Assembly (NCBI GenBank): GCA_002900995.3
Contig: PJEW03000013.1
Location: 72,519 to 136,518, forward strand
Direction of reading: 5' to 3'
DNA length: 64,000 nt
Source of the DNA: Ganoderma boninense
Lineage: Eukaryota; Basidiomycota; Agaricomycetes; Polyporales; Polyporaceae
Below the pieces are notes generated by a model. The model was not told the origin of the DNA. It made no database searches and saw only the letters and a program-made list of their open reading frames with translations. Below are positions 22,901 to 43,994 of this stretch, in pieces (positions within the stretch are counted from its first letter, which is position 1; each line of letters opens with the position of its first letter). The translations under genes and the position numbers were made by a program.

Positions 22901-24574
22901 TTAACCAAACGTTCCTCTACCGAGACCGGGCGAGCGTCTTCCAGATGGATTATAATTGACATAAATCACGTCATCATCCGAGTCACCCCTCGGGTCGGTC
23001 CCAAGAGGCGGATGATGAGAGCTGGAAGCGGTAGTTGGCTGTTCCGGCACCGGCGGAGCCGGTGCGTCTAGGTCTCGTTCTTCGAGAACAGCCTCGTCCA
23101 ACTTGGAGAATACTTCCTTTTTCCAAAGGCTTGTAAAATCAAACATGTTTCGTGTGCGTTTCCGCGACACGATCAGTCTTTTATCGGTAAGTCCTATGAG
23201 ACGCACGTCGGGAATATACTCTTCCCCCGAAGGCCACACCTTCACCAGCGTTTTAAACTGATGGAGGGTGTCCCCCAGGCTGCCGATGTTCGACAGCGCC
23301 GGGCGCGGCCACTTCTGAAGCGTGCTGGGCTTCATATCGTGGCCAGCATCAGCAACTGCATGCCAATCCTTCCAGTAACCGAGGATAATATCTCCTAATT
23401 CTTTAGCATTAAACCAATTCCAGGCCGTATTGAACTCGGATTTGAGGACCAAGACGTTTCCATCTTCCTCAGCGTTTTTCTCACTCAAACGCTTTTCCCA
23501 TCGTTCGGTAAGGTATCTCCTCACCCAGTTCGAAATAAGGTCTTGTGGGTAGCCCCGCTTGACGTACAGACATACCAAGTCATGCACGGACTCCAAGTAG
23601 ACGGAATAAGTGCTACTGAGCGTCGCTAACCGTGACATCTCACCGGTAAAAGTACCGCGTTTAACATCCAGGGGATGGTGTGATATCCAAGGAATTCGTT
23701 CTAAATGGTTCTTTCCTTTGCGATACGGTCGCCATTCTAACTTCGTTCCGCGCTCGTTGAAGTAGAAGGTTGCGTCTAAAAAGTTACACCGCAATGGAGA
23801 AGAGTCCCATAAGATTTGACAGCCATCGAATCTAATTTTTGAATCTATATAGCGTTCGGCTTCGTCACTACTCTTAGCACGAACTATACTGAAGCAATCA
23901 TCAATGTAACGACCGTAGAACGCAACTCGTTCATCGGTCATTATACCAGCCTTCGCTTCGAAATGGCAGCCGTAAAGGTTTGCCAGATCTGGAGAGTCCG
24001 CGACGCCCATAGCTAGGCCTCGCTTTTGAAGGTATAAATTACCCTGGTATTTAGTTATCAAATCTGTATTACCAACTTCTAGACAACGTCGGAAGACCTC
24101 GGCCCTTCTGCGCAGGTCGGGACCTTTGCAGCCGGGGCCGTGCTCCTCTTCCGTCGTATTAAACACTAAAGGATCGAACGTGAAGTCTAGCCATGCCTGG
24201 TATACGATATCCAGGCACTTTTTCAGTGGAACGTTCGGGTAAAATGCGACGACGTCGCCGGTGACTAAGTACCACCGTTCGCCGACGTTAAGTCTAGGAA
24301 GTTGTAGCTTACTTAATTTTGACACCAAGTCTTTGGATCCGTGAATGACGGTTGGCGCCGCTTGAATAAGAGGTTTAAGTTGCTTTGACACGAATTTAGC
24401 AGCGGGCCCAAATACGACGGAGTGGCACGGGATTATCGGCCGAAATCCTGCGGGATTCTTATGAATTTTAGGAATTAATAGGGTGTAAAGTAGGGGGGGA
24501 TTAGGGTTAGAGTGAGGTTCAGGTGAGATTTTCGGAGATTGTTGCGACATAGCGGGCGTACCGCTATGTCGCAA
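22901..24574 (-). CDS. Penelope-like reverse transcriptase, Coprina type, 5'-truncated
   Basis: Reverse transcriptase of a Penelope-like element, 557 codons. Residues 35-48 read PKIHKNPAGFRPII, the family's first conserved block. Motif A is TGDVVAFYPNVP (catalytic Asp about 107), motif B QKRGLAMGVADSP (about 183-195), motif C YIDD (223-226), followed by the HHP segment near residue 300. No GIY-YIG endonuclease is visible after the polymerase, as in the telomere-associated Coprina group of basidiomycetes. The N-terminal domain normally preceding PKIHK is missing: the frame's first codons (MRHSG..AMSQ) are simply the hairpin repeat at 24544, which marks the truncation point. No internal stop is present. 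Downstream lie structured RNA and CCCTAA-type repeats. Confidence 0.85.
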   Translation of the reverse strand: MRHSGTPAMSQQSPKISPEPHSNPNPPLLYTLLIPKIHKNPAGFRPIIPCHSVVFGPAAKFVSKQLKPLIQAAPTVIHGSKDLVSKLSKLQLPRLNVGERWYLVTGDVVAFYPNVPLKKCLDIVYQAWLDFTFDPLVFNTTEEEHGPGCKGPDLRRRAEVFRRCLEVGNTDLITKYQGNLYLQKRGLAMGVADSPDLANLYGCHFEAKAGIMTDERVAFYGRYIDDCFSIVRAKSSDEAERYIDSKIRFDGCQILWDSSPLRCNFLDATFYFNERGTKLEWRPYRKGKNHLERIPWISHHPLDVKRGTFTGEMSRLATLSSTYSVYLESVHDLVCLYVKRGYPQDLISNWVRRYLTERWEKRLSEKNAEEDGNVLVLKSEFNTAWNWFNAKELGDIILGYWKDWHAVADAGHDMKPSTLQKWPRPALSNIGSLGDTLHQFKTLVKVWPSGEEYIPDVRLIGLTDKRLIVSRKRTRNMFDFTSLWKKEVFSKLDEAVLEERDLDAPAPPVPEQPTTASSSHHPPLGTDPRGDSDDDVIYVNYNPSGRRSPGLGRGTFG

Positions 24575-24643
24575 AAAGAGAGCAGGTTCGGGGATTATCG
24601 GGAATAGGAAAGTTGCGACATAGCGGAGTGACTGCTATGTCGC
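24543..24643. repeat. hairpin family 1, two copies (24544-24572, 24615-24643)
   Basis: Consensus GCGACATNGCGG, five variable bases, CCGCNATGTCGC. The first copy is perfect, loop GCGTA, and lies exactly at the 5' junction of the truncated reverse transcriptase. The second has one stem mismatch. These are the leftmost members of the family in the window. Confidence 0.9.
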
Positions 24644-25386
24644 AGATATGGGAGCAAGACTGCGTACCTGGAAAATTCGAATAAAGGTGTGATAGCAAAC
24701 ATGGCATTAGGCGTAGATGGTGACTGTGTATAAAGGAAACTTAGTGAAGATGATAAGATAAAAGTGATGTGAATGCAAGTGGGATATGGAGTGAAGACAG
24801 GCATAAAGGCGGGTCGAACTGGGTGATGTCGACAGCTTTTTAAATGAACTCATGAATTGTGTGTGAAAGCATTATTGAGACGGACATATGTAGCAAAGGG
24901 TCGAGATATCGAGAGAAGAAATGGAGCTATGTAAGACTTACTATGAATGAATTGAAATCTGAATGAGGGGATTAGGTAGGAGGAAGGAGTAGTGGCTAAA
25001 GAAGGATGGAATGAACGAAGCGGGTGGAGGGTACAAAGAAGGAAGGCAGGTGAAGAGGCGAAGTGTCGGAGTGATGTGAGGAGAGGTGAGAAGGAGAGAG
25101 AAAGGGAGCGCAGCAAACGTGAGAAAGAGAGAAGAAGAGAAGCGAGAGAATGATAGCCGGATGCAGGCATGGTGCCGATGAATAGAGTTGTTGAGAAGGA
25201 GGGGCAGAAGCGAGCGGGCTGATGTAAGTGGGAGAAAAGAGTGCGGTCGAGAAGGGGGATCTGAGTGTGCCAGCGAAGCGGGTAGGAAGTATATAGGAAT
25301 GAGGTGGGCGAGGGACATGAAGAGCAACGGCACACCTAGCTGACGCACTTTGTCTCCCCCCTGCTGCTACCTCCCATCTACCTGCC
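24644..25386. other. intergenic, strongly purine-rich on the plus strand
   Basis: From about 24,900 to 25,330 the plus strand is rich in A and G (many GAGA, GAAGG words). The same bias precedes the second paralogue (26,880-27,090). No gene is supported; open frames on the minus strand are Ser/Leu/Pro-rich products of the pyrimidine strand. Confidence 0.5.
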
Positions 25387-26059
25387 ATGAACCGTCTTGA
25401 CGAGCACATTGTGGACACGCTGGTTGAGACTGTGGCGTACACGATCGATCCGAACGGCCTAGCGGCGAACATGGAGATCGACAACGTGTTTAGGATGGGA
25501 AGAGGGGAGGGTGTTGAGGAAGAGGGGGTTATGGGAGGCGGGGAGGGGCCAGAGGATGAAGAGGGGTGGTGGATGTTTCGACGCTGGCGGACACGTTCCT
25601 GATGCATGTGCGTGCGCTGGACCACACCGCGCGAGTGGACTCGTCGTTCGAGGAGATGTACCGGTTTCTGGACGGGCGGCTGGACGACGACGATCTGCGA
25701 CTGTTTGCGCGGCAGTACTCCGAGACCACGCGGATTGCGCGTGTGCGAGGGGACCGTGAGGAGTTTTTTGCGATGCTGCACATGTACCTGCGGAAGTCGC
25801 GGCGGGTGGAGGAGGCGGAAGAGATGCACGTGCAGGATCCATCAAGGGCGACGCAGGCGGAGTGGTGGGCACGACGAGAGGAGAGGGAGGAAGCACGGAA
25901 GCGGTTGAGTACGTGGATCGAGTTGTTTGTGAACTCGTTAGAGGAATGTGAGTGAAGAGGTGGTGTGGGTGTTTATTGTTTGTAGGTGAGCTGACTATAT
26001 TTGTAGTGCGACATGTTGTTGATCACGGTGTATACTGGGATGGGCACATGCAGCCATGA
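25387..26059 (+). CDS. small paralogue family, member 1 (frameshifted)
   Basis: First of three related genes (see 27110 and 42914). Exon 1 from ATG 25387 (MNRLDEHIVDTLVETVAYTI) changes frame in a G-rich run near 25,563, after which the family domain follows (ARVDSSFEEMYRFLD, about 25,638-25,682). Donor GTGAGT at 25948, acceptor ending at 26006, short exon 2 to the stop at 26057-26059. Intron position and phase match members 2 and 3. The domain is mainly helical and charged, ending in a long helix rich in Arg and Glu. No known domain recognised. The frame change is one missing base in a G tract: either a pseudogene or an assembly error. Sequence identity to the other two is low (roughly a quarter), so the family is old. 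Confidence 0.6.
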
Positions 26060-26233: not shown

Positions 26234-26419
26234 GCGATATAGCGGATGGACCGCCATGTCGCACGTAGTTGAGAAGAGGATTGACAGTGAGTCATTGGTT
26301 GATGTGAGTGCGACATAGCGGGCTGACCGCTATGTCGCGACGACAGGCACCCAAGGCCAGTCTCTGTTGTAATCGTTGGTTGATGTTAGTGCGACATAGC
26401 GGGCTGACCGCTATGTCGC
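26234..26419. repeat. hairpin family 1, three copies (26234-26262, 26310-26338, 26391-26419)
   Basis: The first copy is diverged (GCGATATAGCGG ... CCGCCATGTCGC). The second and third are perfect, share loop GCTGA and lie in an 81-nt direct duplication including flanks (TTGGTTGATGT before, CGCG after), showing local duplication of a hairpin together with its flank. Confidence 0.9.
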
Positions 26420-27109
26420 GCGGATGGGCACACACGGTCCAGTGGCTGTTGTACACACAACTACGATATAACATTAAAGATAAAGATGATGCATACAGTG
26501 TTCGGTCTTCAAAGGTGAAGCCTGACAGAGTCGGGTGGAAAAGCACGCACCTACTGTTGGTGGGATCACCAATCCAAGTAGATAGAAACAGGAATGAGGA
26601 GACATGCCTACAAAGGAAAAAACGAGAAGCACACACAAGAGCGGAGGGTGTTGGAAGAGAAGATTGCAAGATAAGCACCTGGAAGTCAAGCGGTAAGAAG
26701 GCACCACTGATAGCTGAGGGCTGGGAATACCGAGAGTGGTTATGGATGTGAGTTGTCCATAACAGGAATAGTGTGGTTGAGAATGATGGGAGTACGTGCG
26801 CGCATAATCATATCGAGCCCTGACAGCCGAACATTGAAGAGAGAGAGAGAGTACATGCAAAGCAATGTAAGACTACAATAGAATGTGAGAGAGCGGGTTG
26901 GTGAACAGGAGAATAGGATGTGGGATGAGGGAGGGAACGGGGATGAGGGAGGGAACGGGGAGGATGGTGGTTTGCGGATTGACAGACGGCGAATTAGAAG
27001 AAGAAGTGGAGAAGGGAGACGAAGCGAATAAAGAAAATTGCGACTGGAGCGAGAGGATGGAGAAAAGGGTGGGCAGAGCGAAAAGAGCAAGCACCTTCGC
27101 CCACCCACC
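26420..27109. other. intergenic, upstream of paralogue 2
   Basis: No gene supported. A 21-nt direct repeat (GGGATGAGGGAGGGAACGGG) occurs twice at about 26,922-26,962 in a purine-rich tract that runs up to the start of the next gene. Confidence 0.4.
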
Positions 27110-27883
27110 ATGGCTGCCATTACCTTCACTGCTGAGGAACTCCTTGCTTACACTGCTCTGTGCGACTTTGTGGACGACGTTACGCATGGCGGACATAGGG
27201 CGCCGACGAGCGGAGGAGTGTGGACGGAGCGCACGCCTGCGATCGAGGTGCTCTTCAGCACGGAGGGGACGGGGAGGGAGGATGGAGAGGGGGACGAGGG
27301 GGACGAGGGGGACGAAGTGATGGGAGTTGTGGAGGGTAGTCGGGAGGGGCAACGGCAGGCGATGGGAGGGTTCGAGATTGTGACGGAGTTCCGGAGGTTG
27401 CTGCGCGACCTGCCCGTGGGCACCATTGTTGATCCGCAGTTTGAAAACCTGCGGAACTACCTGGAAGCGCACGAGCTGTTGACGACGACGCAAGTGGTTG
27501 CGTGGACGCAAGAGTACCACGTCGAGACGCGCGGACAGGACTTGATCGTGTCGTCGAACCGGGCGATCGCGGCGATGCACAGAGTGGGGCGGTCGGCGAA
27601 GAAGATCCAAGAGCTGACGCAGCGGCACGCGGAGACGGGCAGCCGGAGTGTCGTTGCGGAACTGGACGACGAAGAAGAGGAGTTGGGGGACCGGCTCCTG
27701 AAGTACCAGAAGGAGCTGAAGGACCACATTGCGATTGCGGAGGAACGTGAGTATTGTTTCCCTTTAGAAGAAGTTGAACTGAATGTTTAAACCGCAGTGT
27801 TGGACCTGGTGAAAGCAGACGACCTGTGTTCCCAAAACATACTGCAGGGCACGACGGCGTCGCACGATTGGATCATGATGTGA
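27110..27883 (+). CDS. small paralogue family, member 2 (intact, 240 aa)
   Basis: ATG at 27110 in strong context (CCACCATGG). Exon 1 27110-27746, exon 2 27798-27883, phase-1 intron of 51 nt, 240 residues. The N-terminal helix (TFTAEELLAYTALCDFVDDV) is followed by a disordered Gly/Glu/Asp-rich linker (about residues 60-80) and a helical domain. Compared with member 3 (42914) the domain shares PGTIVD-like, EYHVETRGQ/EYQALTRGQ, VRSSN/VSSNRA and HAETG/HARTG positions. A conserved LLDL follows the intron. Unknown family, unknown function; size and helical domain suggest a small soluble adaptor or DNA-linked protein, but nothing in the sequence proves this. Hairpin copies lie on both sides. Confidence 0.8.
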
Positions 27884-28072
27884 ATGCAAGGGTGACATGG
27901 ACGGCGAGCTCAATAGACGTCACACCGTGGTGTAGCAGCGACCTGTGTTTTTTTGGTCGATAGCATTTTACGTGACCATCGTTCGCATGTACATACTGCG
28001 TTGCCCAACTTTCATGTGTACGTCAAATCTGTATCAAACGAGTATACAGATGGGGGAACAAGCATCACCATT

Positions 28073-28221
28073 GCGACATGGCGGGCCGGCCGCGATGTCG
28101 CAACGTCGTACGCTGCTCGTGATGCTGATTAGCCTGCGACATTGCGGGAATTCCGCTATGTCGCATTTATCTTCGGTGTTTGTAACAAGGATGCGACATA
28201 GCGGCGAGACCGCAATGTCGC
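28073..28221. repeat. hairpin family 1, three copies (28073-28101, 28136-28164, 28193-28221)
   Basis: Loops GCCGG, GAATT and CGAGA. All three differ from the perfect stem only at stem position 8 (G:G, T:T and A:A oppositions). The group lies between paralogue 2 and the large ParB-like gene. A lone diverged half-site (CCGCTACGTCGC) lies at 28422-28433, 84 nt before the next start codon. Confidence 0.9.
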
Positions 28222-28516
28222 GAAGCATGAACGCCCGAGTAACGACTTCGATTCCTGAGCGAGAAGTTCAAGAAGGTCGAGTGTGTCGGTAACTGTAAGC
28301 GCGTACACTGTTCACAGCTGCTATGCCATGGTCACGTGTATTGACCGGTGTCATTGTTGGGTGGCGGTGCAATCGGGATCGGGCACCACATGGATTACGT
28401 GAGGCTGGGCAAAGGGCATCGCCGCTACGTCGCGAACGTCTTCCACTACCCACGTCTTCCTCCCACCATCCAAACGCTAACTCTAACACCCAACACTTGC
28501 TCTCTGCTTTACACAC

Positions 28517-31500
28517 ATGCCTGCGACTGTCTCGAACCGCAAGCCCGAGGATGAGGGGTCCCCACGACCTCTGGAAGACGAGGAGGAGCATGCGCAAAAC
28601 ACGCAAAACGACGGGGCCGAGGAACGCTCCAAGGTGCGATCGCGATCCACTCTGGGACCGTGGTACTAACACTCTATTTTCGCCTGCACAGAAAACGAAA
28701 AAAATCTCTCAAAAGCGGCGCGCGGACTCGGGCGAAGAAGACGACGATGAGGAATCGTCGTCCGAATCTGAATCAGAGAAGTCGTCGGAGGCGGCGGCCA
28801 GGAGCGGAGAGGACGAAGACGATGATGCGGAGGGGTCGCCCGCACCGTCGCAGGGGGGGGCCCACTCCACCCAGGTGCGTACTTGTGGGTTTGTGCGCGG
28901 GGTGGGCAACTTTGATAGAGCATGCGCGCTGGCAGGGAGAGGAGTCCGACCTCGACGGCGAGGACGCGGCCTTGGAAAAGGCAGTCAGACGCGGAGCGGT
29001 AGGAGGGTCGCGCTCTGGGGAAGCAGAGGCGGACTTACTCATGTTTTTCTCCAAGGCTGCGCGCGAGAACAGGCGCGCTGTGGACGCGTTGGAGGACGAG
29101 ATTTTGGGCGCGCGCCAGACGCAAGCCACAGTACGTCGTATTCTGTGGGCTTGCGCGCATGGATCAGCTAACGAGGCTCAGCAGGAGTCCGACGGGGATG
29201 AATACGTCCCAGAGGACGCGCCGAAAGGGAAAGCGGGCAAGCGGCGTGCGGTATGTAGATCTGCACCGCTCAGATTGACTTTGGGAACTGACATTCGGTA
29301 GGCGGGGAAGAAGGCGAAGGTCGAGATCAAGGAAGAAGATCTCGACGCGACGATGGTCATATTGCCGACCAGGGCTCAAGACCGTCTCGACCGCGCGTTC
29401 CTCGGCTACGTGCGCATCAATGTCGTAACGCCGGAGCTGGGAGTGACCTCCAACTGGAAGGTCATTAACAAGCGGGAAATCGATCCGCAACACGAGAAGA
29501 TGCTCGTGCAAAGTTTCCGGGAGCGCAAGGAGGACTGGGAGCATCCGATGCACCTCACGTTGGACGGGAGCAAGATCGACCCGTCGTGCCTGTCGCGCTC
29601 GCCGTACCCGGTCAAGGACTTGAAGCCGCTGGTGTGGATCTGTCCGCCGACCGAGCGCGTGATGGATTGTTTGAGCGGCAATCACAGGCGCGGCGCGGCG
29701 ACGAAATACAGCGCGGAGTTGGCGAAGGAGCTTACGGAGACGCAGGCGAAGCTGCGTGCGCACCAGGCCCAACAAGCGTCTGGAGGGCAGAAGCAAATCA
29801 CCGCGGCCGGGGGCTTAACCGACGAGGTGGCGGAGGGGTTGCGCGAGAAGATCGCCGCCCTCGAGGAAGCGGCCGCGGACGCGCAGCTTTGGGTCGAGAA
29901 GGTGTACGACAGCCGTAAGTCCCGCGCCCCGCGTATCAAAACGAAGCTAACGACCGCTTAACCTGCAGGAATCATCGACGACGACATCGCGGGCAAGGCG
30001 CTGCTCGCGACGAATGAAGTCCGACCTGCGAAGGCCGCGGACTCGCAAGAGAAGGTGCAGATGCTGTCGTGGCGCATCGAGGAAACGATGCAGAAGTGGC
30101 GGCGCCAGCACCCTGGACTTCCTGTGCCGGTGGCGGGAACGGAATTGTACCGCAAGGAGATCATGCGCGGTGCGCTCAGTGCCCCGGAGCTCAAGGACGG
30201 GATCGGGAGTTTCCTGTTCACGGTCGAGGAGAATCTCGCCCTGATTCAAGATCTGTGGCAGTTCTCGTATTTCCAGGTTACTGGGCGCGTGCCGTTGTCG
30301 CGGCTGGAGGACGCGCTGGGGAAGGCAGGAAAGAAGGAGATGAGTAAGAAGTCGGGCTCCGCCATGGTGAGCGCGCCATTGAGACATCCGCTGACATTGC
30401 TGACCAGCTGGGCGATAGCTTTGGCGATGGCTTGTCCACACCTTGATGCGGGATCTGAGGATGGTCGCGACCACCGTCCCGTTCCCGGACCTGGAGGACC
30501 GGCTCGACACGAACGCGAGCCACATGCGGAACTACCTACTGGTCCTCAACGAGATCGACAAGCCGCTGGAAGTGACAGAGGCGATGTGGACCGACGCGGC
30601 GTTCGACTCCACGACGGATCGTCAAGACCGCACGGCGCTGAAGACCGTGCTGAGTGTGGGCCGCGCGAACGTGGAGAAGCGATACAACCACGACGAGAGC
30701 ACCTGGGTTACGCCGGAGAAAACTTGCAACGCGGTCTGGGACACGACACTGCTCTCCATCGTCAACCAAATCTACGACAAGTGTTTCCGCTTGAGCGACG
30801 CGTACCTCCACTTTGGCGACTGGGAGCACCCCAAGTGGAAGGAGGCGATGGACATGTATCGCTCCGACTGCTACCACCGGCTGCCCGCAGAATGGTCGTT
30901 GCGGCTCTCGCACATCAAGCCAGAGGAGGGAAACGCCCCTGCCCGGAGGGCCCTGCGGGACGCGAAGAGGAAGTACCAGTGGTTCAAGCAGCTCCAGTCA
31001 TCCGGCGGCCGCGTCCTCAACGTTCCTTTCCTGTGCGACGCGTTCATGGAGGACTTTAGCCATGCGCTGGCTGAAGCAGAAGCGGGGTTCAAACTGGTAC
31101 GTACGTTGACATGTCCTTGCTGCATGCGACATGGCGGTCCACCCGCTATGTCGCATCCAGAGCGTCTGTGCTTGCTGCATGCGACATGGCGGCCCAACCG
31201 CTATGTCGCATCCAGAGAGCGTCTGTCTTGTCGCATTGCGACATGGCGGTGCGACCGCTATGGCGCAACATTGCAGATCCCAGTTGCATCAGGTGCGACA
31301 TAGCGGATTTTCCGCTATGTCGCAACCGATTATCATAAGCGTCTTCGGGACAGAAGTTCTTAGGCGTCTCTAGGCGGCGACATAGCGGACTCTCCGCTAT
31401 GTCGCAAACTATCTGATACTATTACTGACATCACTCAACATATCAGATCACTCGCACCTTGGACCCCTTGGCCCAGATCGGCATCTTACGCTCTTCCGCG

Positions 31501-34500
31501 GGAGATACCGACAAGGACAACAAGGTCTATCCCGACTACCTGTCCTACGTTGCGCAATTCTTCTCGAACAAAGAGCGCTTCAAGAACACCAGTCCTGAGA
31601 TGGCGCGATCTATTGTAAGTCTTTCCTTGTATCCGTATACATATCGCACTTCCATAGCTTTTCATTATACAGCTCTGCCCCTGGCTCCTCTCCAATCTCA
31701 AATTGATCAAGAAATGCGGGATCGCCTATCAGCATTCGATGGTCAAGACCCCTCACGAGTCTTTCTTCGCCGTCTCCGTCCAGTCCCTCTCCCTCGAGTT
31801 CACCCGCCTTCATTCCAAGACCAAGGGCAAGGTCAAGACGTTCCTCCCTGCAAGCAAGTTCCCCAAGGCGTTCACTGGCACCCTCGACGGCGTCGATATC
31901 ACGGAGGACGACAGGAACGACATTATCAAGATTTACGAGATATTGGTCGAGAGTGCCCCCCGCGCCGACTCTTCCAACACTCCCCTCCTCAAATCCGCCG
32001 TTCGCGCCGCTATGCACGTAGCCTCGCAGGACATCCTCGGTCGGGGCCTCGATTGCCTCTCGCTCCAGGACGTCAAACGCTTTCCCTGTCTCGCCATCTT
32101 GTACCGCCATCTCCTTTCCTGGACCGATCCCGAAGGCGGCGTCAAGAAAGGTAAGTCCAACGGGTTCCTTGCATACGCCTACCTCCTCTTCCTCGGCTGG
32201 CGCGTCTACGGTGACACCATCGGTCGCATGTTCGAGCTCCGGCCCTACATGGAGCTGCGCAACAACCTCTTCCGGTTCCTCGGGCAACATTGCCAGCAGA
32301 CCTTAGACGACTTCTTGGGCGACCCCACCATTCGTCCGGCCGTCACCCAGTACGCCAACTGGGACCATAAGGTCACCGACCTCTTCGTCGACCTTCACGG
32401 CAAGCCGATCGTGTTCGACTCCGCGAAGGACAAAGCGGACGGCGGCGCACCCCGCATCCTGTTTGAGAACCCCACCGTCACCCCCTTCGACTCCACCGCC
32501 ATGATCAAGCACACGGCCAGCGCCAAGAAGATCATCGACAGCATGCTCAAATGCCCTCTCGCACACATCGACGACGAGGACCCTCGGTGCACGCCCGAAA
32601 TGGCTTTCCTTGCCCGCCAGGTCGCTTGCGTGAGTCATCTCCTTCTTCGTGTCCACTGCTTCACTGATCATTCCCGTAGACCTACATGCGCAACGCGTTG
32701 GAGGCCGAGTTCCTCCGCGCGTTCCCAGGGACTAACCGTCCGTACGTCCATCCCTCCGACAAGGACCTCGAGCCTTTCCTTCCGCGTATCCCGGTCGCGG
32801 GCCCCAGTCGCAAGCAGTCCTACGACACCTTGAAGCAATTCAAGGCGGACAATCCCTCGCAGTACCTTCAGTTCTGCAATGGACTCGTCGTCGAGGGCTA
32901 CGAGAAAGCCCCTCGAGGAGACGACGACGCCGGCCCTAGTCAAGGCGACAGCAGCCAGTCCTCGAGTGCTGTCGTTCGCAGGAGCACCCATCCATCCGGC
33001 ACCGTCTACCCTCAGGACGTCGACTGGGCAGCGACTTGGGCCACAGTCAACGCGAAGAAGCTCGATGCCACCAAACTCCCTGACCCCGTCGCCGCGGCAG
33101 AGAGCTACCGTCCTCCCGGTCTTCCGTCTTTGCGCATGCCAGCCCATCCCCCTTCCCCCCTCAGCAACAAACACCGCCGCAAACAGCACCAGGCCGCGGC
33201 TCAACGGGAGAGGTCGCGCGGAGACGCTACTCAGGAGAAGACTCCTTCGCAAAGCTCGCAGCCCCCCGCGCGTCCTCTCGCGCCAATGCAGTCGCACGTG
33301 CCAAAGGGCATGACTGTCGCCCCCCGCCCTGCGAACGCGTCGAAGGCCGCGGCACCTGTTGATAACAGCGCCATGGACATCGACAGCGATATGCCTCAGG
33401 CGCCGCTCCCTCCCATCGACGTTCCTCCGGCGCCGGTGCAACAGGCCGCCGTTCGACAAGTGCCGCCTGTAGAGGGGCAGGGGACGCCTTCCACCGCGCC
33501 TCCTGCAGGCGTCGATCCCCAATTCGTCCCAGACGCCTCCGCAGTGCGTGGTCCCCCTCCCAACATCCCCATGACCCCCCTGTCCCCAGGCAACGTTCTG
33601 GTCCCCTCCTCGTCGCAGGCCGAACCTCAAGACGATAACGCGATGGACACCGGCCCTGACCCCTCGGATGGCGCGCCCCCTTCATCCCTGCCTGACGTCG
33701 TCCCCTCCACCTACCCCATGGAGCCCACACAGCTTCCCCCCCGGTCTCCTCCCGTGCTCGTCGAGACCGTCTCCTGGGAACTCGCCGCGCCGACCGCAGA
33801 CGAGCTGGAGAAGTTCGACGTCCTCGTCATGTCAATGGATGTCACCAAGCTCAACAGCCTCGGTCAACGCGTCTACGACGAAATCGCGGCCGACGCGACG
33901 CTCTCGTACGCGTTGGACGAGCCGACATCCCAGTTGAGCAAGCGTCTTCAAACCTTCTGGGCCCTCATGCGCGATTACAACGACGGCATCATTCCGGACG
34001 AGGTCTTCGCGTATATTCGCGAGGATCATGCGGACATCTGGCAGGAAGTTAGCTGGGAGGCCTCGCTGGAGGCTTTGGTCGACATGAGCCACGCAGAGGT
34101 GTTCCAGAACACGGCCATCGATCGGTTCACACACCGTGCAATGGTGTCTCGTCGCCCTATCTATGAAAAGGGTAGAGAACCCGGTGCGTTTCATTCTCTT
34201 TCTATTATCATTCAGCCTGTCTAACACAACTGTAGTGAAAGAAGCGCAAGCCGGAGAAAAACGGCGGGAACGCTCTGGCTCGTTCATCGAGGACGCGCGA
34301 GCCTCTGGCGCGGTTAGTCCTCCCAAGAACAAGCAGCGGCGCGACGACCCGCTTGGCGAACCACCGGTCGTCAACGAGGACGCCCCTCCGCAGTCGCGCC
34401 GCGCGTCGTCTCGCTCAAGGTCCAGCCCCGCCCCCCCGGCCGACGACGTGCCAAGCAGTCCTGCCCGTCCTCGCACGCGCGCGGGATCTCTCGGAGGCTC

Positions 34501-34678
34501 GAAGGCCAAAGCCCCTAAGAGCAAGAAGAAATCGCCCCGGAAGCCGGTGGACAAGGACCCGCTTGAAACTGTTCCCGAAGACGCGGAGAGCGACCACTCA
34601 GGCGGCGGGCCTGTCGCTGGGTCCTCAAAGGGATCCGGCAAGCAACGGGTCCCGGGCACACAGTACAGGCGTCGGTAG
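28517..34678 (+). CDS. very large protein (about 1774 aa) with a possible ParB-like motif
   Basis: Eleven exons with matching phases: 28517-28633, 28692-28874, 28936-29130, 29182-29250, 29302-29914, 29969-30366, 30419-31096, 31447-31614, 31673-32629, 32680-34183, 34236-34678. Introns are 50-61 nt except the seventh (350 nt), which carries five hairpins. The start MPATVSNRKPEDEG is followed by about 150 acidic, disordered residues. Exon 5 has an ordered domain: LDGSKID near residue 270 and LSGNHRRGAATKY near 313-325, which resembles the ParB/sulfiredoxin-fold box (G-x-H-R-x-x-A), followed by a coiled coil (AKELTETQAKLRAHQ). Exons 6-9 encode a long ordered region of unknown type; exons 10-11 are Pro/Ser-rich with basic segments (KAKAPKSKKKSPRK), likely nuclear. 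The ParB relation rests on a short motif and is tentative. No frameshift; coding quality is high. Confidence 0.75.
31126..31405. repeat. hairpin family 1, five copies inside an intron
   Basis: Copies at 31126-31154, 31181-31209, 31238-31266, 31295-31323 and 31377-31405, loops TCCAC, CCCAA, TGCGA, ATTTT and ACTCT. All lie in intron 7 (31097-31446) of the large gene. The first two share flanks (TGCTGCAT before, CATCCAGAG after). The first three have G at stem position 8, giving a G:T wobble. The third also has a change in the second arm (CTATGGCGC). Confidence 0.95.
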
Positions 34679-35147
34679 GACAGTCATGTAAAAATATCGC
34701 GCCATCTTTTTGAACGCTGCGGACGGACAAATCGGACTATCGTTCCTGTAGACCGGTCGCGCGGATGCGAACGAGGCTGTCAGTGCGTCTTCGAACTTTA
34801 GCTACCTCATTCAATGTAATTTCTGTGTAAGACTTGTAATCAGTTCAGCTGCTTCATATTGTACTTTCGTATTCCTCATTCAAATGAGTGCATCCAGCGG
34901 CGGACATGTCTCCCCATTGTGAAGCTGTGCATCAACCTAATATATGATGCTCAATTTGGCAAATTGTTCAGCCACTGCGACCTGGTCTTTTCAGACAAGC
35001 AAGCTGACTTGCGGACAATGCGTAACTCCGAAAATATTTGTCCGTGCCTCGATCGGCCTTTGGCTATCCGTGACAACAGCCTACGAGGGTTGGCGACCAC
35101 TGGAAATCAGAGCGCTGTCCGCACCCCCGTTTTCTTTCTCCAACGAC
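34679..35147. other. intergenic between the two large genes
   Basis: About 470 nt with no hairpin and no supported gene; presumably the terminator of the upstream gene and the promoter of the next. The two genes run in the same direction. Confidence 0.5.
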
Positions 35148-38100
35148 ATGAGCAGCGATAGCGAAGAATCCGACACTGAACTGAGGTGCGTCCCTCATTG
35201 TATGCGGGGGAAGGTGGAGTCGTAACACAGCGCAGAGTTGTTCGGACTGTAGAGGCCCACCCCGGCTTGAGTGGAGAAATCCCCGAGAATGGTTTCGGGG
35301 CGCGGCTCTTCCAACAGGACACTGTGAACGATGGGGAGGAGGTTGACTTCGACATCACCGCGTTGCCCCCGACATGGAATGACGGGGACGGTCTCGACCA
35401 GACTACGCTCACGAACACGGTCCTCGCCCAGTTCGCCTGCGACGACAACATCGACCAAAAGTATAACAACATCCAAGAGGAGACCAGGTCGCTTGCAGAA
35501 CTACGGGCCCTATACGAGCATGGTTCCGAGCCTATGGTCCGCGAACAGGCCATTCGCCTCCTCAAGAAGAAGATCAAGCTCACCATCCCCAACCGCATGA
35601 CGTACAAGAACACACACAAGGACATTGTGTACAGCAACACGGGGGTACGTCGTTATTACGCATGCAACCTGCCCGTCCTGTCCCCAACACCTACATCGTC
35701 CCCCAGATGCATCTTGATCTCCGCCAGATGTTAGGCAATCGTATCGGCCTCGACGCTCTCCTACCTAACATGGCGGACCCCCTCGCTCGCTTTGACCCGC
35801 TCTGGACTTTCCGACTCGCCACTGACCGACGCTACATGCAGTTCAACGGCACTGTCGACTTCCTCAACTGGGACCCCAACGGTCGCTTCGTTTATATCGG
35901 ATCTGTCCGACAAGTCGAGCACGCCTATCTCGTCATGGTGCCGAACACGGCCATAGGTGCTCCTGTTAATCCCAACGGCGTCCCCACCTATAAGAACATC
36001 CGCCCTATGGATGTCCGCAGCGTCCGAGCTGTCTTTATGATGCTAGCCTACATGCTAGCCAAGGTAAACTACGGTGCTATCCACGCGAACGACCCGTATC
36101 CCAGTCTCGATCCCAACAAGCCTGTGAGCGAATGGGCTTGTAACATCCTGTGAGCATCTCTATTCATCCAGCATACGCGACATTGCGAATCATCCGCTAT
36201 GTCGCTTGGAGACAACTGCACCATCCCTTTTGATGGACAGCCGAATGGCAAATTCGGATGACGTCTGCGACATAGCGGCTGTCCCGCTATGTCGCACTCT
36301 GTCTCCCGACGTAGCGGTCATCCCGCTATGTCGCACTCTGTCTCCCGACATAGCGGCCATCCCGCTATGTCGCCTACATATCTGAAGTGAGACTAACCAG
36401 CGCGACATAGCGGTCGTCCCGCTATGTCGCCTACATATCTGAAGTGAAACTAACCAGCGCGACATAGCGGTCGTCCCGCTATGTCGCACTCTGTCTCCCG
36501 ACATAGCGGCCGTCCCGCTATGTCGCACTCTGTCTCCCGACATAGCGGCCGTCCCGCTATGTCGCGTGGTTACGATCATGACATGTAATATAAGACATGG
36601 GCTTATACCGACATGTCATGATGAACGGTTTGCTAAATTCCATCCTCTGTCGGTTAGAGAACTCGAAGGAGTCAACCGTAATATGTCATTCCATCTATTA
36701 GAGATATTCTCATTTCATCCATTGTGTATCAGTGACATACGACTAACATTGTTTTTGAAGCTACACGAAATATTACGACATCAATCTTCAAACCACTTTT
36801 CGCCTTCATAAAGAGATAGCCCGTTCGTATGCTCAATGGCTCGCGGAAGCTCCTCAGGAGTATCGCGATACAATCTGTGGCTCTTCGGTTCCATGCGCGT
36901 TCTCGTCCAAACACGGGCAGAATAGACTCGTCAACGGAGAAGGCACCCACGATCAGCAACGCCAGTTCTGGGCTCGCACAGTAGATCATCGTCATCTCGC
37001 CGTTTACAAAGTCGCTCTCGCCCTTCACATTCAGTGCGCAGCGCAATATCCTCTTCTTGATCCAAATACTGACGTGCTTCCTGTAGATGCTCCGAAGTTG
37101 GTTCTTGGGATCCTGTCTCTCAACAGGAAATCCTCGATGAATATGGAGAGGAGTTGTACGACAGCCCCGACAGAGCGAACCGCGCTCGCATCGACCTCGA
37201 TAACTTTCCAGATCTCGTGGACGAAGACGGCAAGGATATCGATATATACACCCCCGACGGCAATCCCGTTCCCCGCTTGGTCGCTATTGAACCAGACGAC
37301 GGTCCCCGCTTCTGCGCCCTCTTGCCTTACCTTCCCAAGTGTCGCTCCCTCTTCGTAGGTCAACACGCAGGCCAAATGTTCGAGGACAACGATGAAGAAG
37401 ACGACATGGAGGTCGAAGACGTCCTCAACGATCACGGCAGCATCAACGACGCTGACGAGGCCGGGGCTCCATCTCGCCATTACAGACCTTCCCCTCGCGA
37501 TATCGCGTTCCAGGTCTATCCGACCGCTTTTACCCACACGCTCGGTAACTGGCAGGCTAAGGGCCTCATCACTGCCCTCGCATCTCGCATCTCCACGGTG
37601 TCACGCTCCGTCGCGCGTTTCCCCAATGGCGCCCCCGCCATCGAAGGCTCCATCTCTCAGTGCTATAATAACTTTTCTCATCATACCCGTCGCAGCGCTG
37701 GGCAACATATCGTCCAACGCGGTATCCTTACTGGTGTAACAGCTGGCGCTTGGGCCTCAAACGCTCACGCACAGACAACCGCCTCTAAGCTCTTCAAACA
37801 CGTCACCCACGATCTCCCTCACAAGGCACTCGAGGAACAGGTCAATAATGTCATCGAGACTAGCTTGCGATTTGAAAACGTGTTCACCGTTCACATGCAT
37901 CGTCTCGCTCCCCAGTATCTCGAAGGAGATGCTTTCTTCTCCTCAGTCATCGAGCCTCTCATCGACGCCTGCGGTCATGCCGACGTGTTCGAGGCGCTGC
38001 GTGATTCCACCACAATCCTCAGACCCGGTGTACGCCTGTTCCATCTCTTTCACTAACGTTTTCGCTGACTCTGTTGGTGCAGGTTTACCCATCCATGCTC

Positions 38101-40320
38101 CTCTGGACAGCCTTTCCAATCACTGTCATGATGGAGGAAATCTGGAAGACACACATCCGCCCAGTGTTGGACAAGCGCCAACGCCATCGTACAACCGGGG
38201 CTGTCGCGGTCAACCCGCGCTCCCGTCGCGTTCCTCCAATCGACCATCTCGCCAACGTCCCTCCTCCCCAATGGCTCGAGTTGCTGGCCATGCTCGAACG
38301 CTCCCTCTGCTTCGCCCACACCGGCAGCGCCCCTTCCCTCGCTTACGCCCTCATGAAACGCACTTTCACTAGTCGCGCTTTGCTCGATGGTTATCTTCCA
38401 TTCTTTTGGGATGGTCTGGAGATCCCAGAGTCTGCCCCTCTCCTCCCTCGCCTGTATATGCACAAGTGGCCTATTGACAAGTTCAAACAACCACTTCTCG
38501 CTTCGAAGCGTTCCCAGCTTCTGACGTATGGCCCCGCTCATCTCGCTGTATGTTGTTTTTCTATTTGCTTTCCTTACATCCCACGCCTTACTGGTAATTC
38601 CAAGGGGTACTCTGCTACATTCAAGATTCATCTCCGGCTTGCACGCGCTCGCGTACAGAGCGGCGCTCAGTCTGCTCAAGACCAGATCGACGTTGCACTG
38701 ACCATTCTGACAGAGGTGATCGTTGACGCGTTCATCGTCGATGCCACTGACATCGTCCGCAAGACCCTCAAATCTTTGAAGGACCATGCTGACCTCCATC
38801 CTGAGCAGTACAACATGGAGTGGGTCAAAGTACGATGGGAAAGTTTCTGTCGCTGGGAGGCGACCAAAGAACGACTTGACTTCGGTCGGGATTACGACAC
38901 TTACGTTCTGCTCTCCCGCGCGCTCGCTGCCTCAGAGGATGACCCCATCCATCGCCTTCCCCAGAGCACCATCCCTTCTATCTCCATCGGTGACCTTGCT
39001 CGTGCCATATACGATATCTGTCGCCGCGCAGAACTCCGCCAACAAATTCGCGCCCCAGTCTGGCGTGACGGTACTCTCCCTGCCGTCGCTCGCATGGCCA
39101 TCGCTCACGCCCACAACCGCATGGGTCGCGCAGTCACAGAAGAGGAAAAGGGCAACCAAATCGTCAAGTTCCTCACGTCTGCGCTCCTCAACCGCAATGT
39201 CCACTTCTTTCCCAACTCACCTGCTGACGGCAACCCATTCCCCTCCGTTGACAGCTGGACATACCTCGGTAAACGGCCTTCACCCGCTGACATCGCAAGC
39301 AACAACCTCGAAAGCATCGGTGAACGGCGTCGAAGACTTTGCGCTGAAGAAGGTCGTCTCGCGAGCCAGGGCGATGTCAACGCGGACTGGACGGTTCTCG
39401 ACTGCGACATCGAATCCTTCGCCAACTACATAGATCGCACATGTCTCCCAACGGAGTGGGAGTACAGGAACGAGTCGTCCATCGCTCACAATGAGGAGAT
39501 CTTGCCTGTGTATGAATGGGCCGAGAAACGCCTTCAGATCCCCACCAGAGACTCCTACACACGGCTTGCCCTTGCCCTTGGCTTCCTCTTCACAAAGCTT
39601 GCGCCATGGCACGTCTATTGTCCCGATTTAGACAAGACGAAGCAGTATCCTGTCATGGAGAATGTCTGCAAGAAGCTCAAAGGACTTACCGCCACCACCC
39701 GTCATCAGTCCGTCGCCATTGCCCACCAGCTTCCCTGGATCTACAAGGAACGCAAAGGCGCTTCTCAGCTCGATCTGTACTTCACGCAGGCGACTGTGAC
39801 CATACTGTTGTGGGCTGATCCATCTTCACCTCTGCGTGTTGAGCTCGCTCGCAAAGGCAAGAAAAATTCTCTTATCTCCGCCTATAACCACAAGCACAGT
39901 ACGTCCCACTATCCAGGTCGTTGTCTCTGCCTCTTCCACTGACTGCGCATTGCAGCTACGAAAGGCCTAGGAGTCGCGAACATGGTTAGACTGGGCGTGT
40001 TGGATGCCCAAGGCGTCGGTCTCCTCAAGGCTCCCAAACCCAATGTTAGCTACTTCGCTCGTCGCGATCGCGACATTCAAGAGCTTAGTGAAAGCGTTAC
40101 GTCTGCTTTCCGCCGCGGCCCAGATGCGATTTACAACCTCGTCCTCAACATTTTCCACAGCGAAGTCACCAATTTTCTCCTGAAGAAAGGCGAATTTCCC
40201 TCCCGACCACCTCCCGTTGAACAGCCCGAGTCTTCTGTGGCGACCCGTCGTCGGGCGAGAGAAGTGATTGAGTTGTCAGACGATGAAGAGGAAGGGCGTA
40301 GAGTAAAGCGTCGTCATTAG
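35148..40320 (+). CDS. large conserved-looking protein of unknown function (about 1431 aa)
   Basis: Seven exons in matching phase: 35148-35185, 35236-35644, 35707-36149, 36761-37082, 37127-38029, 38083-39898, 39956-40320. The first intron junctions are typical; the third intron is 611 nt and holds eight hairpins. A 57-nt in-frame segment at about 38,549-38,605 starts GTATGT and ends AAG, and may be another intron, which would give about 1412 residues. The N-terminus is acidic (MSSDSEESDTE). The body is ordered, with long helical stretches, and no membrane segments. The C-terminus (EVIELSDDEEEGRRVKRRH) is an acidic patch followed by a basic tail that could act as a nuclear signal. I do not recognise any domain. 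It lies 470 nt downstream of the ParB-like gene; the shared hairpins and orientation suggest they belong together. Confidence 0.75.
36177..36565. repeat. hairpin family 1 array, eight copies inside an intron
   Basis: Copies at 36177-36205, 36267-36295, 36306-36334, 36345-36373, 36402-36430, 36459-36487, 36498-36526 and 36537-36565. Two spacer types occur: a 10-nt one (ACTCTGTCTC) giving a 39-nt period, and a 28-nt one (CTACATATCTGAAG followed by 14 more) giving a 57-nt period. Four copies start CCGAC instead of GCGAC because the 10-nt spacer ends in C. Loops are AATCA, CTGTC, TCATC, CCATC, TCGTC, TCGTC, CCGTC and CCGTC. All lie in intron 3 (36150-36760) of the 1431-aa gene. Confidence 0.95.
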
Positions 40321-40442: not shown

Positions 40443-40631
40443 GCGACTTTGCGGATCTACCGCTATGTCGCATTGTAACGGTCCCTTTCTTGCGACATAG
40501 CGGATATTTCGCTATGTCGCGACTGCGAAGAGCATGACATATTGTGGCAAAAGATAACCAAATCACGGAGCAAGCATACATATATCGTTCACATCTTTGA
40601 CCGCGACATTGCGGATATCCCGCTATGTCGC
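40443..40631. repeat. hairpin family 1, three copies (40443-40471, 40492-40520, 40603-40631)
   Basis: Loops ATCTA, ATATT and ATATC. In the second copy the right arm is TCGCTATGTCGC, losing one pair. In the third the inverted repeat extends five bases further on each side (TGACC ... GGTCA). They follow the stop codon of the 1431-aa gene by 120 nt. Confidence 0.9.
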
Positions 40632-42116
40632 GGTCAGAGGGACGGTCCGTCACTTCAGTCTGACACCATAGAGTCAATCCATACAGATTTTTGTTCATAT
40701 CATATCAGGTCGCTCTGTCTACTGAATGTCATATGACAATCATACGCATCATATGTTGGAGTCATTTCTGTATCTCAAACATTTCAATCTCGATATTTAC
40801 TGACAAAAGCATCCACAATATTTCAGCCGACTGTGGACTGTGTTGTTCCCGACATTTTGGTTATTGTATCTTTTAAAGTTGAATGTCAATGGGATGTCAA
40901 TATAATACCAAAGGTCTGCTTACAACTTCGTCACGTTGGGCGTATTGATCACAGTGGGATTGAAATCCAATCGGTCATTGTGTCTTCCTATTTTTGCGGG
41001 AAATGATAGATTTTCCGTCGCTTCGTCTCGCATGAATGACCCCTCTTCGCACTTTGTCGTGCTGACAACGACACGTCGCTCCTTTGACGAACGGCGGGGG
41101 GTTGGGATCTGTAACGATCCACGCTGCCAAAATCATCATGAAATGTTTGACTCTCGTATGCCACGATTTCTTACCTGATTCAACGTAACTTGCGTTGGAA
41201 TGCTCGTCGGCCCTCTGTCACTGCATTCGTTCCATGAGTTTTCAATCACCGCCGCTTGCCCAAATAAACCCATGGTAACTTCTTCCACCCCCGTCAACAG
41301 AAATAGAAATTCTTCGGCGGACGGCAAGGCTGTTGTTCTGAGTGCTTGCCCGACATCGTCACGTTCGCACTCTCTGTGCTCCTGGCCCTCGCATCCACTG
41401 AGACTCCGCGATGGACTCCTCGAGGAAGATCGCGTTGGCTGACCACCATTGTCGCGTGACTCCATGGGTGTGGCGCAGGTGATGAGCGAGGGGAGGGGGT
41501 GTAGCACACTCTCACTTTCTTGCTGCCTCTATATCCATATTCCGCTCGCTTCTGGTGCGCCTCGCGTGTGTGCGGCATAACGTTGCATTGCTTACGTCTT
41601 CGCGTTCTCGAATCACACATCTTCTTTGATGCCCTCGCTTGCTGATTTAGGCGTTCTTATCACATCCGTGCTGTTACGCACCGTCCTCCAATGTTCCGTA
41701 CCTTCCGTCTCTATGGGTCTTTCCCCTTCGTTATGTCCACATGGGCACTATTCCCTTGCAATCGTTTTGCTGTCTACCTCTGCATCATTTGTAGTGTCTG
41801 CCTGGCGTTCATGTGATATCTTCTAACACATGATATCTTATGTCGTCTCATAATCACCCGTTCATTGACATCTTACCCGTTCTGACTCTGTTGTTCTCAT
41901 TCTTGCCATTTGAGGCAGAATGATCTTGATGTCAACACCTTACATATATACTAACGCACATAGGCATGTGTTGAGCACAATGTATACATCATCAATCGAT
42001 TATAAAGTTGGCACTATAGTGGGACCTGAGTCATTTTTCAAACACTTTCTCATGTCGCGGATCGAATGTATAAGGTTACAGATTCACGCATTTACAGCTG
42101 GTGGAAAGCAATATCT

Positions 42117-42145
42117 GCGACATAGCGGCTGCTCCGCTATGTCGC
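42117..42145. repeat. hairpin family 1, single copy
   Basis: Perfect 12-bp stem with loop CTGCT in an otherwise AT-rich intergenic stretch, which makes the GC-rich insertion easy to see. No clear target-site duplication flanks it. Confidence 0.9.
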
Positions 42146-42913
42146 ACTTGCAACGAATGCGCCATAATTTTCCCCTTGTAATATCCGGACAATGCCATTG
42201 GGATATACTTGCGATCGGTGCATTATATCCGATGATACAATAACATTCTGTCGTAGAAACTGCAGTTGGTATCGAAACGAACATACGAATATGTCTTAGA
42301 CGTGATGCTTCTTAACAACACAAGTCCCATTGGCTCCGTGCAACACAGTTTACCGTTATCTCATACGATGTTATTTGAGCCATCATTGTGCAGGAGTGCG
42401 CACAACAGATGTTAATGGACAGGAACATATCCCAAATTTATGTATGGTAGATAAACATAACATGGGTCCGTAATTGGGGGTCCGCTGACTTAAGAGTGCA
42501 TGAAAGAAGCGCGTGGCTAAACATTCGAGCCGATGAGAACGCAGTGGGAAGGGAAGGAAACGAAGTATCCAAAAAAGTAAGCGTGTGGACGGAAATGATG
42601 CCACAGGGACGGTCCGCTGTCGTATGTACCGCGTGGATGCAGAACTATAGAGCCCACGCACCACACAGGAAAGTTGAAGAGTAGTGAACCTCCAATGTGT
42701 ATGTACTGTGAGACACAGCGTGGAAATGTTCAGCGGAAAAACAGTTCACGAGTCGAATATGGAGCGCAGTGCCATGAGTTGGTGAACAGGCGGTGAATTA
42801 GAAGAGGAAGCAAGACCACGTGTAGAGAGCCGAGTAGAACAATTGCAGAACGCCTAGTTGGCAGTCAAAAGGGCAGTACGGGGGTGTGGACAATCCGCTC
42901 TCGCACACCCACC

Positions 42914-43681
42914 ATGCCCTTCATCATGCCCTCCAACTACGACCAGCGCGCTTACGATGCTCTCTCCGAACTCATTCGCACTGTAACGCAAGGTGGCCAA
43001 TTCACACCCACTCCCCTTTCGAAGGACGCGGAACGCCAATTCCTCCTCGGTATCATCTTCCAGAGGCAAGACGCGCAACTGGAGGCCGCAAAAAGGGAGC
43101 AGTCCGAGGGCGAGGCCTTGGCAGGCACGCAAGCGGGCGTGGGTGTGGGCAACGTCGGAGTCAGCGGAGGCGCGGAGGATGAGGAGCAGGATGGCGTGGC
43201 GATCATCTCTGAGTTCCGAAATCGCCTCTACAACCTCGCCCCAGGTACGATCGTCGACGTACTCTTTTATCAACTGCGCGAGTACCTGGAGCGGGAGGTG
43301 TTATTGTCCGCCAAGCAGATTGAGGTCTGGAGGGAAGAATACCAGGCCCTGACGCGTGGGCAGCAGCTCGTTCGGTCCTCGAACGACGTGGTCGAGGCGA
43401 TGTACACCGTGCTGGGGACATCGATGGACATCCAAGACCTCACGAAGCTGCACGCCAGGACCGGCAGAGCCGACGTCGCCGACCAGCTGGCCAACGCGGA
43501 GCTGCAGATGGCGGAGTGGCTCCGGACGTACAAGGTGGTGCTCAGGCAACACATCAAGATCGCGCACGACTGTAAGTTGTTGTTTCGTATGTTGAGGACA
43601 TTACTGACTTGTAGTACAGTGCTAGACGTTCTGTGTGAGAGCGACGCTGAGCTCACGAACGAGCTTTTCGGAGTGGTCTGA
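42914..43681 (+). CDS. small paralogue family, member 3 (intact, 239 aa)
   Basis: ATG at 42914 in the same context as member 2 (CACCCACCATG). Exon 1 42914-43571, exon 2 43620-43681, phase-1 intron of 48 nt, 239 residues. N-terminal helix AYDALSELIRTVTQGG, a Gly/Glu linker (about residues 70-90), then the family domain (PGTIVDVLFYQLREYLE, EYQALTRGQ, VRSSNDVVEAM, LHARTGRADVADQL). After the intron LLDVL matches member 2. Intron position and phase are identical in all three members, so they descend from one spliced gene and are not retrocopies. Function unknown. It lies 15 kb from member 2, at the other border of the hairpin zone. Confidence 0.8.
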   Translation: MPFIMPSNYDQRAYDALSELIRTVTQGGQFTPTPLSKDAERQFLLGIIFQRQDAQLEAAKREQSEGEALAGTQAGVGVGNVGVSGGAEDEEQDGVAIISEFRNRLYNLAPGTIVDVLFYQLREYLEREVLLSAKQIEVWREEYQALTRGQQLVRSSNDVVEAMYTVLGTSMDIQDLTKLHARTGRADVADQLANAELQMAEWLRTYKVVLRQHIKIAHDCKLLFRMLRTLLTCSTVLDVLCESDAELTNELFGVV

Positions 43682-43900
43682 CCCCCTGGATATTTCTCGA
43701 CGTCCACCCTCCGTGTCTCATGTATAACGTCTTCCTGACTCCTCATCGTCTTGTCGCCTGTTGCAGTCCCATCTTTGTAAATGCACGTTGATCTTAAATG
43801 CATTTCTTGGACCATATGTTCCCGTGTGATGTCACCCATTTCGCAGATCGTTGTATCGATCTGCTTTAGATTCCTTACATATAACCGGGAAGAGTTTGTT

Positions 43901-43994
43901 GCGACATTGCGGGCCAACCGCTATGTCGCGTTTGCAGACTTGTTTTCATTTGGTCCGATTCGTTCGCGACATAGCGGACATTCCGCTATGTCGC
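43901..43994. repeat. hairpin family 1, two copies (43901-43929, 43966-43994)
   Basis: Loops GCCAA and ACATT; the first has T at stem position 8. These are the rightmost copies of the family in the window; none was found from 44.0 to 64.0 kb. Confidence 0.9.

Follow-up and report, generated by a model that had tools for sequence, protein, structure and literature searches.

Dyad sites and genes of the element

The window analysed in this study, a 64,000-nucleotide stretch of the Ganoderma boninense genome (assembly GCA_002900995.3, contig PJEW03000013.1, positions 72,519 to 136,518, forward strand), contained a repeated 29-bp dyad, GCGACATNGCGG-N5-CCGCNATGTCGC, the version belonging to the window's own lineage and hereafter termed F1. 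The F1 sites lay among the genes of a larger element repeated near chromosome ends. Exact matches to the pattern occurred at 17 places between 24544 and 43994, and allowing up to two arm mismatches gave 27 dyads, with no additional sites at three to six mismatches; dinucleotide shuffles of the window (n=100) gave 0.00 matches. The dyad system is therefore real and strongly non-random, and its anatomy is well supported. An earlier note on this DNA, made from the letters alone, had reported 27 copies in 19.5 kb starting at 24543; the number and the end of that interval held, while its start was one base early.

The dyads, recorded without strand, fell into eight clusters. A subterminal pair stood at +71 and +142 from the terminus of the element (24544 and 24615; 24544..24643). 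Three dyads (26234, 26310 and 26391; 26234..26419) preceded small gene b, and three others (28073, 28136 and 28193; 28073..28221) lay ~300-450 bp upstream of gene 1. Five (31126, 31181, 31238, 31295 and 31377; 31126..31405) were within intron 7 of gene 1 and eight (36177, 36267, 36306, 36345, 36402, 36459, 36498 and 36537; 36177..36565) within intron 3 of gene 2, where some were local tandem duplications of a site together with its flank. Three more (40443, 40492 and 40603; 40443..40631) followed at the 3' side of gene 2, a single dyad (42117..42145) lay upstream of small gene c, and the last two (43901 and 43966; 43901..43994) were 3' of gene c. Gene 1 intron 7 (31097-31446) measured 350 bp, against 50-61 bp for the other introns of that gene, and gene 2 intron 3 (36150-36760) measured 611 bp, against 44-62 bp for the others. 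None of the 27 dyads overlapped a coding exon, though the hand-built exons made up 59% of the interval, in agreement with the earlier claim that the copies are never exonic; with the dyads grouped in eight clusters, this amounts to about eight independent placements.

All gene models were built by hand, and all are on the forward strand. Small gene a (25387..25950) had a frame broken near 25590 and could be read as two separate pieces, which were 88-99% identical in the copy at the left end of contig C10. Small gene b (27110..27884, two exons) was a paralogue of small gene c (42914..43681, two exons) at 36% identity, and pieces related to gene c were found ~0.9-1.2 kb from the terminus in copies of F1b, a diverged relative of the window lineage that was 80-84% identical to it over the first 85-101 bp. 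The two large genes had no internal stop: gene 1 (28517..34678) comprised 11 exons encoding 1,774 amino acids, with a GNHR motif at residue 314, and gene 2 (35148..40320) comprised eight exons encoding 1,412 amino acids.

Homologue searches scored the 7,986-7,991 candidates sharing most words with each query, and the resulting lists are lower bounds. Homologues of gene 1 in Ganoderma were 42-43% identical. In Ganoderma adspersum the homologues of genes 1 and 2 carried consecutive locus tags (V8D89_006641 and _006640) on contigs of equal length, and the two genes are likely adjacent in that species too. Further homologues were present in G. leucocontextum and, for gene 2, in Boletus edulis, the nearest named relatives being in Ganoderma; an alignment search with gene 2 yielded one new protein, again from G. 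leucocontextum. The Pfam family PF26608 was precomputed for two gene 2 homologues, one of which was named DUF8190 domain-containing by its source; a local Pfam scan of these two proteins did not return PF26608.

The host element at chromosome ends

The element that carries the dyads extended over at least 19.5 kb and started at a sharp terminus at window position 24474. This constant, centromere-proximal terminus, ATTAATAGGGTGTAAAGTAGGGGGGGATTAGGGTTAGAG (24474..24512, forward strand), formed a sharp boundary among the compared copies, whose left flanks were unrelated, and ATTWATAGGGTG serves as a short label for the terminus type; TTAGGGTTAG lay ~28 nt inside it. The right ends of the copies varied, as six kept 385 to 1,319 bp and a seventh met a gap after 279 bp. 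Both subterminal dyads occupied homologous places in ten of ten copies compared (eight F1 and two F1b). The 27 dyads belong at set places within a larger chromosome-end element and are not free-standing hairpins, and the likeness to bacterial REP (repetitive extragenic palindromic) sequences or mitochondrial double-hairpin elements (DHEs), on which the earlier note had drawn, does not extend to a dispersed mobile family.

The first 25 bases of the terminus, ATTWATAGGGTGTAAAGTAGGGGGG, were found at 35 genomic places at up to three mismatches, 24 of them exact, with none in the control. Location and polarity were evaluated for the 34 places on large contigs, with contig C27 left out. A contig end lay within 260 kb of every one of the 34 (largest distance 256,243 bp, median 40 kb), and in 31 the terminus was on the centromere side, the polarity of end attachment (P=4e-7, for places of which several share one end and are not fully independent). 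Two of the exceptions, on C4 and C7, ran into TTAGGG arrays at the outer end of their chains and then an assembly gap; the third was the window copy itself. The telomere arrays in the C4 locus (L001, C4:4528402-4531430) and in the C7 locus (L029:2647-2778) stand beside assembly gaps inside scaffolds and, judged by sequence, are likely true chromosome ends, that is, scaffold joins across ends. Copies of the element formed chains with two other terminus types and a Penelope-like element. The dyad element thus has in common with terminons its many copies at chromosome ends, one constant end, truncated distal ends and occurrence in chains. Terminus type C was accompanied by a dyad-like family, GCGCATAAGCAC, at only two places (none in the control).

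Searching the whole genome (55.6 Mb) with the F1 pattern, a check that the earlier note had suggested, returned at least 24 exact places and at least 48 at up to three mismatches, and a reversed-pattern control returned none. These 48 places comprised the 27 in the window, 18 in nine other terminus copies (two each) and three elsewhere. Two of the latter, C8:3840422 and C11:3535, lay ~1.35 kb inside two further terminus copies, leaving C1:1640648 as the sole place of the 48 apart from any terminus copy. The dyad at that position, a near-exact F1-like one inside a chromosome arm, is solitary: no other lies within 1.5 kb of it. Viral contigs searched with the F1 pattern, and with that of a second lineage described below (F2), gave no matches.

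Sister lineages with other dyad letters

The earlier note had recognised a single family of arms, and the genome holds sister families with other arms (GCGAAGTSRCGG and GCGCGGACA in place of GCGACATNGCGG). A second lineage, at C6:1-13600, was colinear with window positions 30186-40296, its gene 2 being 61% identical to that of the window and its gene 1 33-57% identical by exon. Its 20 dyads, of the form GCGAAGTSRCGG-N5-CCGYSACTTCGC (F2), occupied the two corresponding introns, the 3' side of gene 2 and places still further 3'. The contig ends before the terminus of this copy is reached; five other F2 copies carried the window's terminus type, with dyads at ~+72 and +145. A third lineage, at C6:15-29 kb (F5), had a gene 2 that was 28% identical and dyads of the form GCGCGGACA-N11-TGTCCGCGC, clustered at C6:15045-15388, 19318-20146, 24904-25182 and 29064-29342 around its gene 1 (18542-19240) and gene 2 (26513-28336), in places equivalent to those of the window. 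The F5 pattern occurred at a minimum of 113 places genome-wide at up to one mismatch, against three in the control, and the F5 end, where readable, started with a different but similar terminus, GACAGAGGGGGTAAAAG. Within one genome, the dispersed site exists in three versions in colinear elements, and all sites of an element share one version.

At least three further dyad versions were found, from one or two sites per copy. Behind the window's terminus type, other copies had GCGGGTTTGC or GCGGATTGGC dyads (nine places, none in the control), and GCGCACACGC dyads stood at +72 and +143 behind the same terminus type at locus L053 (two places, one in the control). Two dyads of the sister families coincide with element boundaries: at L043:1501-1530 (C5:4438638-4438667) the final base of an F2 dyad is directly followed by the start of a new element terminus, and at L001 on C4 (minus strand) the transition from a truncated element to telomere repeats falls within an F5 dyad.

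In the two colinear sister lineages, the places in introns and 3' of gene 2, the 29-bp length and the outer GCG...CGC were kept, while the inner letters differed at all sites. Nearly all dyads, across the lineages, measured 29 bp and had GCG...CGC ends. Among GCG...CGC inverted repeats other than F1 and F2, counted in 29 of 49 loci, 34 were 29 bp long (two counted twice in overlapping loci and 15 situated in two tandem arrays of L019), three were 25 bp, one each was 28, 32 and 36 bp, and none had any other length from 23 to 36 bp. The rest of the window had no such inverted repeat at 29 bp. As in ParB/KorB-type systems, several copies of one palindrome stand on each element, and the palindromes diverge between element families.

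Conservation of arms and loops

Comparison of F1 with F1b sites revealed differences at 4 of 96 arm positions (4%), 11 of 20 loop positions (55%) and 122 of 281 flanking positions (43%), which bears out the earlier suggestion that the arms are under selection. The loops, previously described as nearly all different and hypervariable, did differ between positions (24 distinct sequences among the 27 dyads in the window); at any one position they were stable, since loops at the same position in seven copies had changed at only 1 of 70 bases. Each half is preserved as a half-site, a pattern that a homodimer leaving the centre untouched would produce.

Proposed function of the dyads

We propose, with a probability of roughly 0.56, that the F1 dyads are one lineage's docking sites on a chromosome-end element, bound by a predicted dimeric protein that the element itself likely encodes. 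One subunit of a homodimer would read each half-site; contact with the shared GCG/CGC ends would be common to the lineages, and the inner bases would serve as the address of each. The reader is most simply element-encoded because specificity changes with the element, and the product of gene 1 or gene 2 is the leading candidate. Clusters near the attachment end, ahead of genes and within introns could nucleate a nucleoprotein complex along the element, which may regulate the element's genes from promoters and introns and mark the element's own end. Changed specificities would allow several lineages to share one genome without interference, much as plasmid incompatibility groups do. Attachment of the element to chromosome ends might be provided in trans by the Penelope-like neighbour.

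A broader proposal, which we advance tentatively and with less confidence, is that these lineages represent an undescribed class of chromosome-end element with no recognisable reverse transcriptase, in which every lineage would pair a 29-bp address dyad of its own with a predicted, element-encoded reader that matches it. Such a class would be a eukaryotic counterpart of incompatibility groups, with site and reader co-diverging so that lineages coexist at the same telomeres. The earlier note knew of no described nuclear fungal family with this sequence, and the literature on DUF8190, Coprina and terminons, fungal subtelomeric inverted repeats, Ganoderma telomeres and Agaricomycete telomeric mobile elements likewise gave no description of the system in the sources covered, which excluded most subscription journals. 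The three versions of the site in one genome constitute a natural experiment in how a predicted DNA-binding specificity changes together with tens of sites. The system also brings into fungal telomere biology chromosome-end elements in which no reverse transcriptase is visible, and it accounts for an otherwise puzzling hairpin family.

Several results weigh against the docking-site proposal. Pfam scans of genes 1, 2, b and c (gene 2 as exon pieces and through its homologues) returned no DNA-binding domain, profile searches of solved structures gave nothing credible for the element proteins, and the AlphaFold models of genes 1 and 2 were unusable, with a mean pLDDT (predicted local distance difference test) of 30 and 36. 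The dyad form is also not entirely uniform, as one lineage, behind the window's terminus type, had a 30-bp version, GCGAAGATGCAG (L052 and L054), and the F5 tandem arrays can be read equally as a 14-bp palindrome every 25 bp. A broad dyad pattern found at 135 or more places also matched 21 in the control. Solitary matches lay away from chromosome ends at C1:1640648 (F1) and, far from any end among the F5 matches listed, at C10:1553333. Lastly, at four more distant gene 2 loci, on C14, C8 (right), C9 and C5, the 3.5-4.8 kb that were readable, covering the equivalent introns at most partly, contained four weak single inverted repeats and no GCG...CGC dyad. On C5, a GCGG-type dyad (37055) was present near a terminus (37315-37339), ~4 kb from the gene 1 of that locus.

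Alternative explanations

The dyads could instead be where a site-specific recombinase, a telomere resolvase or a replication initiator cuts or joins DNA, for example in excision, end resolution or replication of the element. The arm-spacer-arm geometry resembles that of such sites, some dyads lie near the attachment end, and both the exact abutment of a terminus and a dyad at L043:1529/1530 and the change to telomere repeats inside an F5 dyad at L001 would be consistent with cutting at the dyad. We nevertheless consider this explanation unlikely. Tyrosine-recombinase sites need matching spacers, and the spacers here differed within a single element; none of the six sequenced F1 truncation junctions fell at a dyad, with a gap cutting off the seventh copy. 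Genes 1 and 2 contained no recombinase string; the histidine-hydrophobic-histidine pattern of HUH enzymes was absent from gene 1 and had a single match, HMH, in gene 2.

Equally doubtful is a role as RNA hairpins, in which arms paired in transcripts, whether in introns or in untranslated regions, would have a part in the processing, packaging or reverse transcription of RNA. Arms of 12 bp with a 5-nt loop would fold, many of the sites are intronic, and the changes from family to family leave both arms complementary. However, variation among sites carried no trace of selection for pairing. Across the 24 distinct F1 sites, none of the 12 arm pairs had a change on both sides, and 95.1% of cells were paired, a value that all 500 shuffles equalled or exceeded (shuffled level 95.6%). 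Positions 8 and 22 of F1 were unpaired in 8 of the 24, and complementarity at position 8 (13 of 24) was that of shuffled sites (13.5). In F2, position 8 was complementary in 10 of 19 sites against 9.9 shuffled, and position 9 in only 4 of 19 against 9.6, that is, more rarely than in shuffles. Free arm positions without covariation therefore argue for DNA half-sites over RNA pairing; by this measure the hairpin of the earlier note is a poorer fit than a protein-read DNA dyad.

It is similarly improbable that a host protein, such as a silencing or transcription factor, binds the sites and is exploited by the elements. The GCG...CGC ends and the length of ~29 bp common to the lineages would suit a single host factor, but such a factor leaves unexplained the joint switch of one element's inner letters while co-resident elements keep theirs.

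Far less probable still is a small mobile hairpin, whether a miniature inverted-repeat transposable element (MITE) or REP- or DHE-like, inserted repeatedly into the region: it would account for many near-identical copies with different loops, but only 1 of 48 genomic places stood apart from a terminus copy, some local increases were tandem duplications that included the flank, and the dyads do not appear to hop, because the same two positions were occupied in every copy compared and target-site duplications were lacking. The earlier note had named such duplications as the mark of an ordinary MITE; direct flanking repeats were found at none of the 27 dyads at k=4, 5 or 6, remained at the shuffled level at k=2-3, and at k=8 flanked 2 of 27 in one register (P=0.09). 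Chance was rejected, with no matches in shuffles or in the reversed-pattern control.

Comparison with known systems

Terminons, which are endonuclease-deficient Penelope-like elements such as Athena and Coprina, attach to chromosome ends by one fixed end, are truncated distally, form chains, and carry several large accessory genes over up to 40 kb, according to the accessible part of the source (PMC6431247). The dyad element is also end-attached, chained and distally truncated and has large genes, and its Penelope-like neighbour, with TTAGGG junctions, occurs in the same chains. It differs in that its genes run away from the fixed end and in its dispersed dyads, which the available portion of that source does not mention for terminons (PMC6431247). 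Two further, weak differences are that its two large genes, the two covered by the scan, had no YxDD or PKxHK reverse-transcriptase string, although the distal part of the element may hold more genes, and that Rfam at the gathering threshold gave no ribozyme in the window and nine loci; the same tools also miss both in the Penelope-like neighbour, with Pfam overlooking its reverse transcriptase and Rfam returning no ribozyme. Among telomere-attaching elements, terminons come closest.

ParB and KorB systems have several sites per plasmid and a role in partition. The GNHR motif of gene 1 resembles that of ParB, a likeness at the level of the motif only. There are differences as well, since gene 1 gave no Pfam ParB domain and no credible profile hit in PDB, the dyads have a free centre within their 29 bp, and the element lives in a eukaryote. 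On plasmid RK2, the replicon-encoded KorB, acting at its palindromic OB sites, brings about long-range silencing, as described in the portion of the report available to us (PMC11790492). KorB on RK2 would be the closest working analogy for the proposed reader.

The DNA transposons Ac/Ds and Spm have repeated subterminal transposase-binding sites near the element end, with lineage-specific sequence. The dyad element likewise has repeated, lineage-specific sites near its end; unlike theirs, its sites are also spread over 19.5 kb in introns and at gene ends. REP sequences, bacterial interspersed mosaic elements (BIMEs) and mitochondrial double-hairpin elements are GC-rich inverted repeats with many non-coding copies, and the dyads share their GC-richness, inverted repetition and abundance outside coding sequence. 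They differ in standing at fixed places in an element instead of being singly dispersed, and in giving no sign of selection on pairing.

Neighboring elements and other features of the window

On the proximal side of the dyad element, and cut where that element begins, lay a 5'-truncated element on the reverse strand (21348..24475), whose reverse transcriptase we take to be Penelope-like from its motifs. It was attached via TTAGGG repeats, (TTAGGG)4, at 21348-21371 and had a tandem ~266-bp repeat at its fixed end. The reverse-transcriptase open reading frame (22904-24520, reverse strand) ran with its last bases into the dyad element, and a Pfam scan of this frame gave no hit. Fuller copies, in a 1,214-amino-acid open frame, were present at C6:57058 and C2:2554. 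Because it has its own fixed end at ~21354 and is truncated no more than two bases from the dyad terminus, we regard this element as a separate member of the chain. Its reverse transcriptase was considered as the dyad element's own enzyme and rejected in view of that separate fixed end with TTAGGG junctions.

Just distal of the last dyads, positions 44370-44920 held tandem and inverted repeats containing CCCGACCTGGTCGGG, and a 24-bp match to this region was also found in the C1 locus around 1640648. Farther on, a long forward frame at 46075-49620, ending at an N gap, had stretches resembling a zinc knuckle, protease, reverse transcriptase and RNase H, and by eye appeared to be a Ty3/Gypsy polyprotein. 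Open frames on the forward strand at 53405-56500 resembled, again by eye, a KDZ-type transposase.

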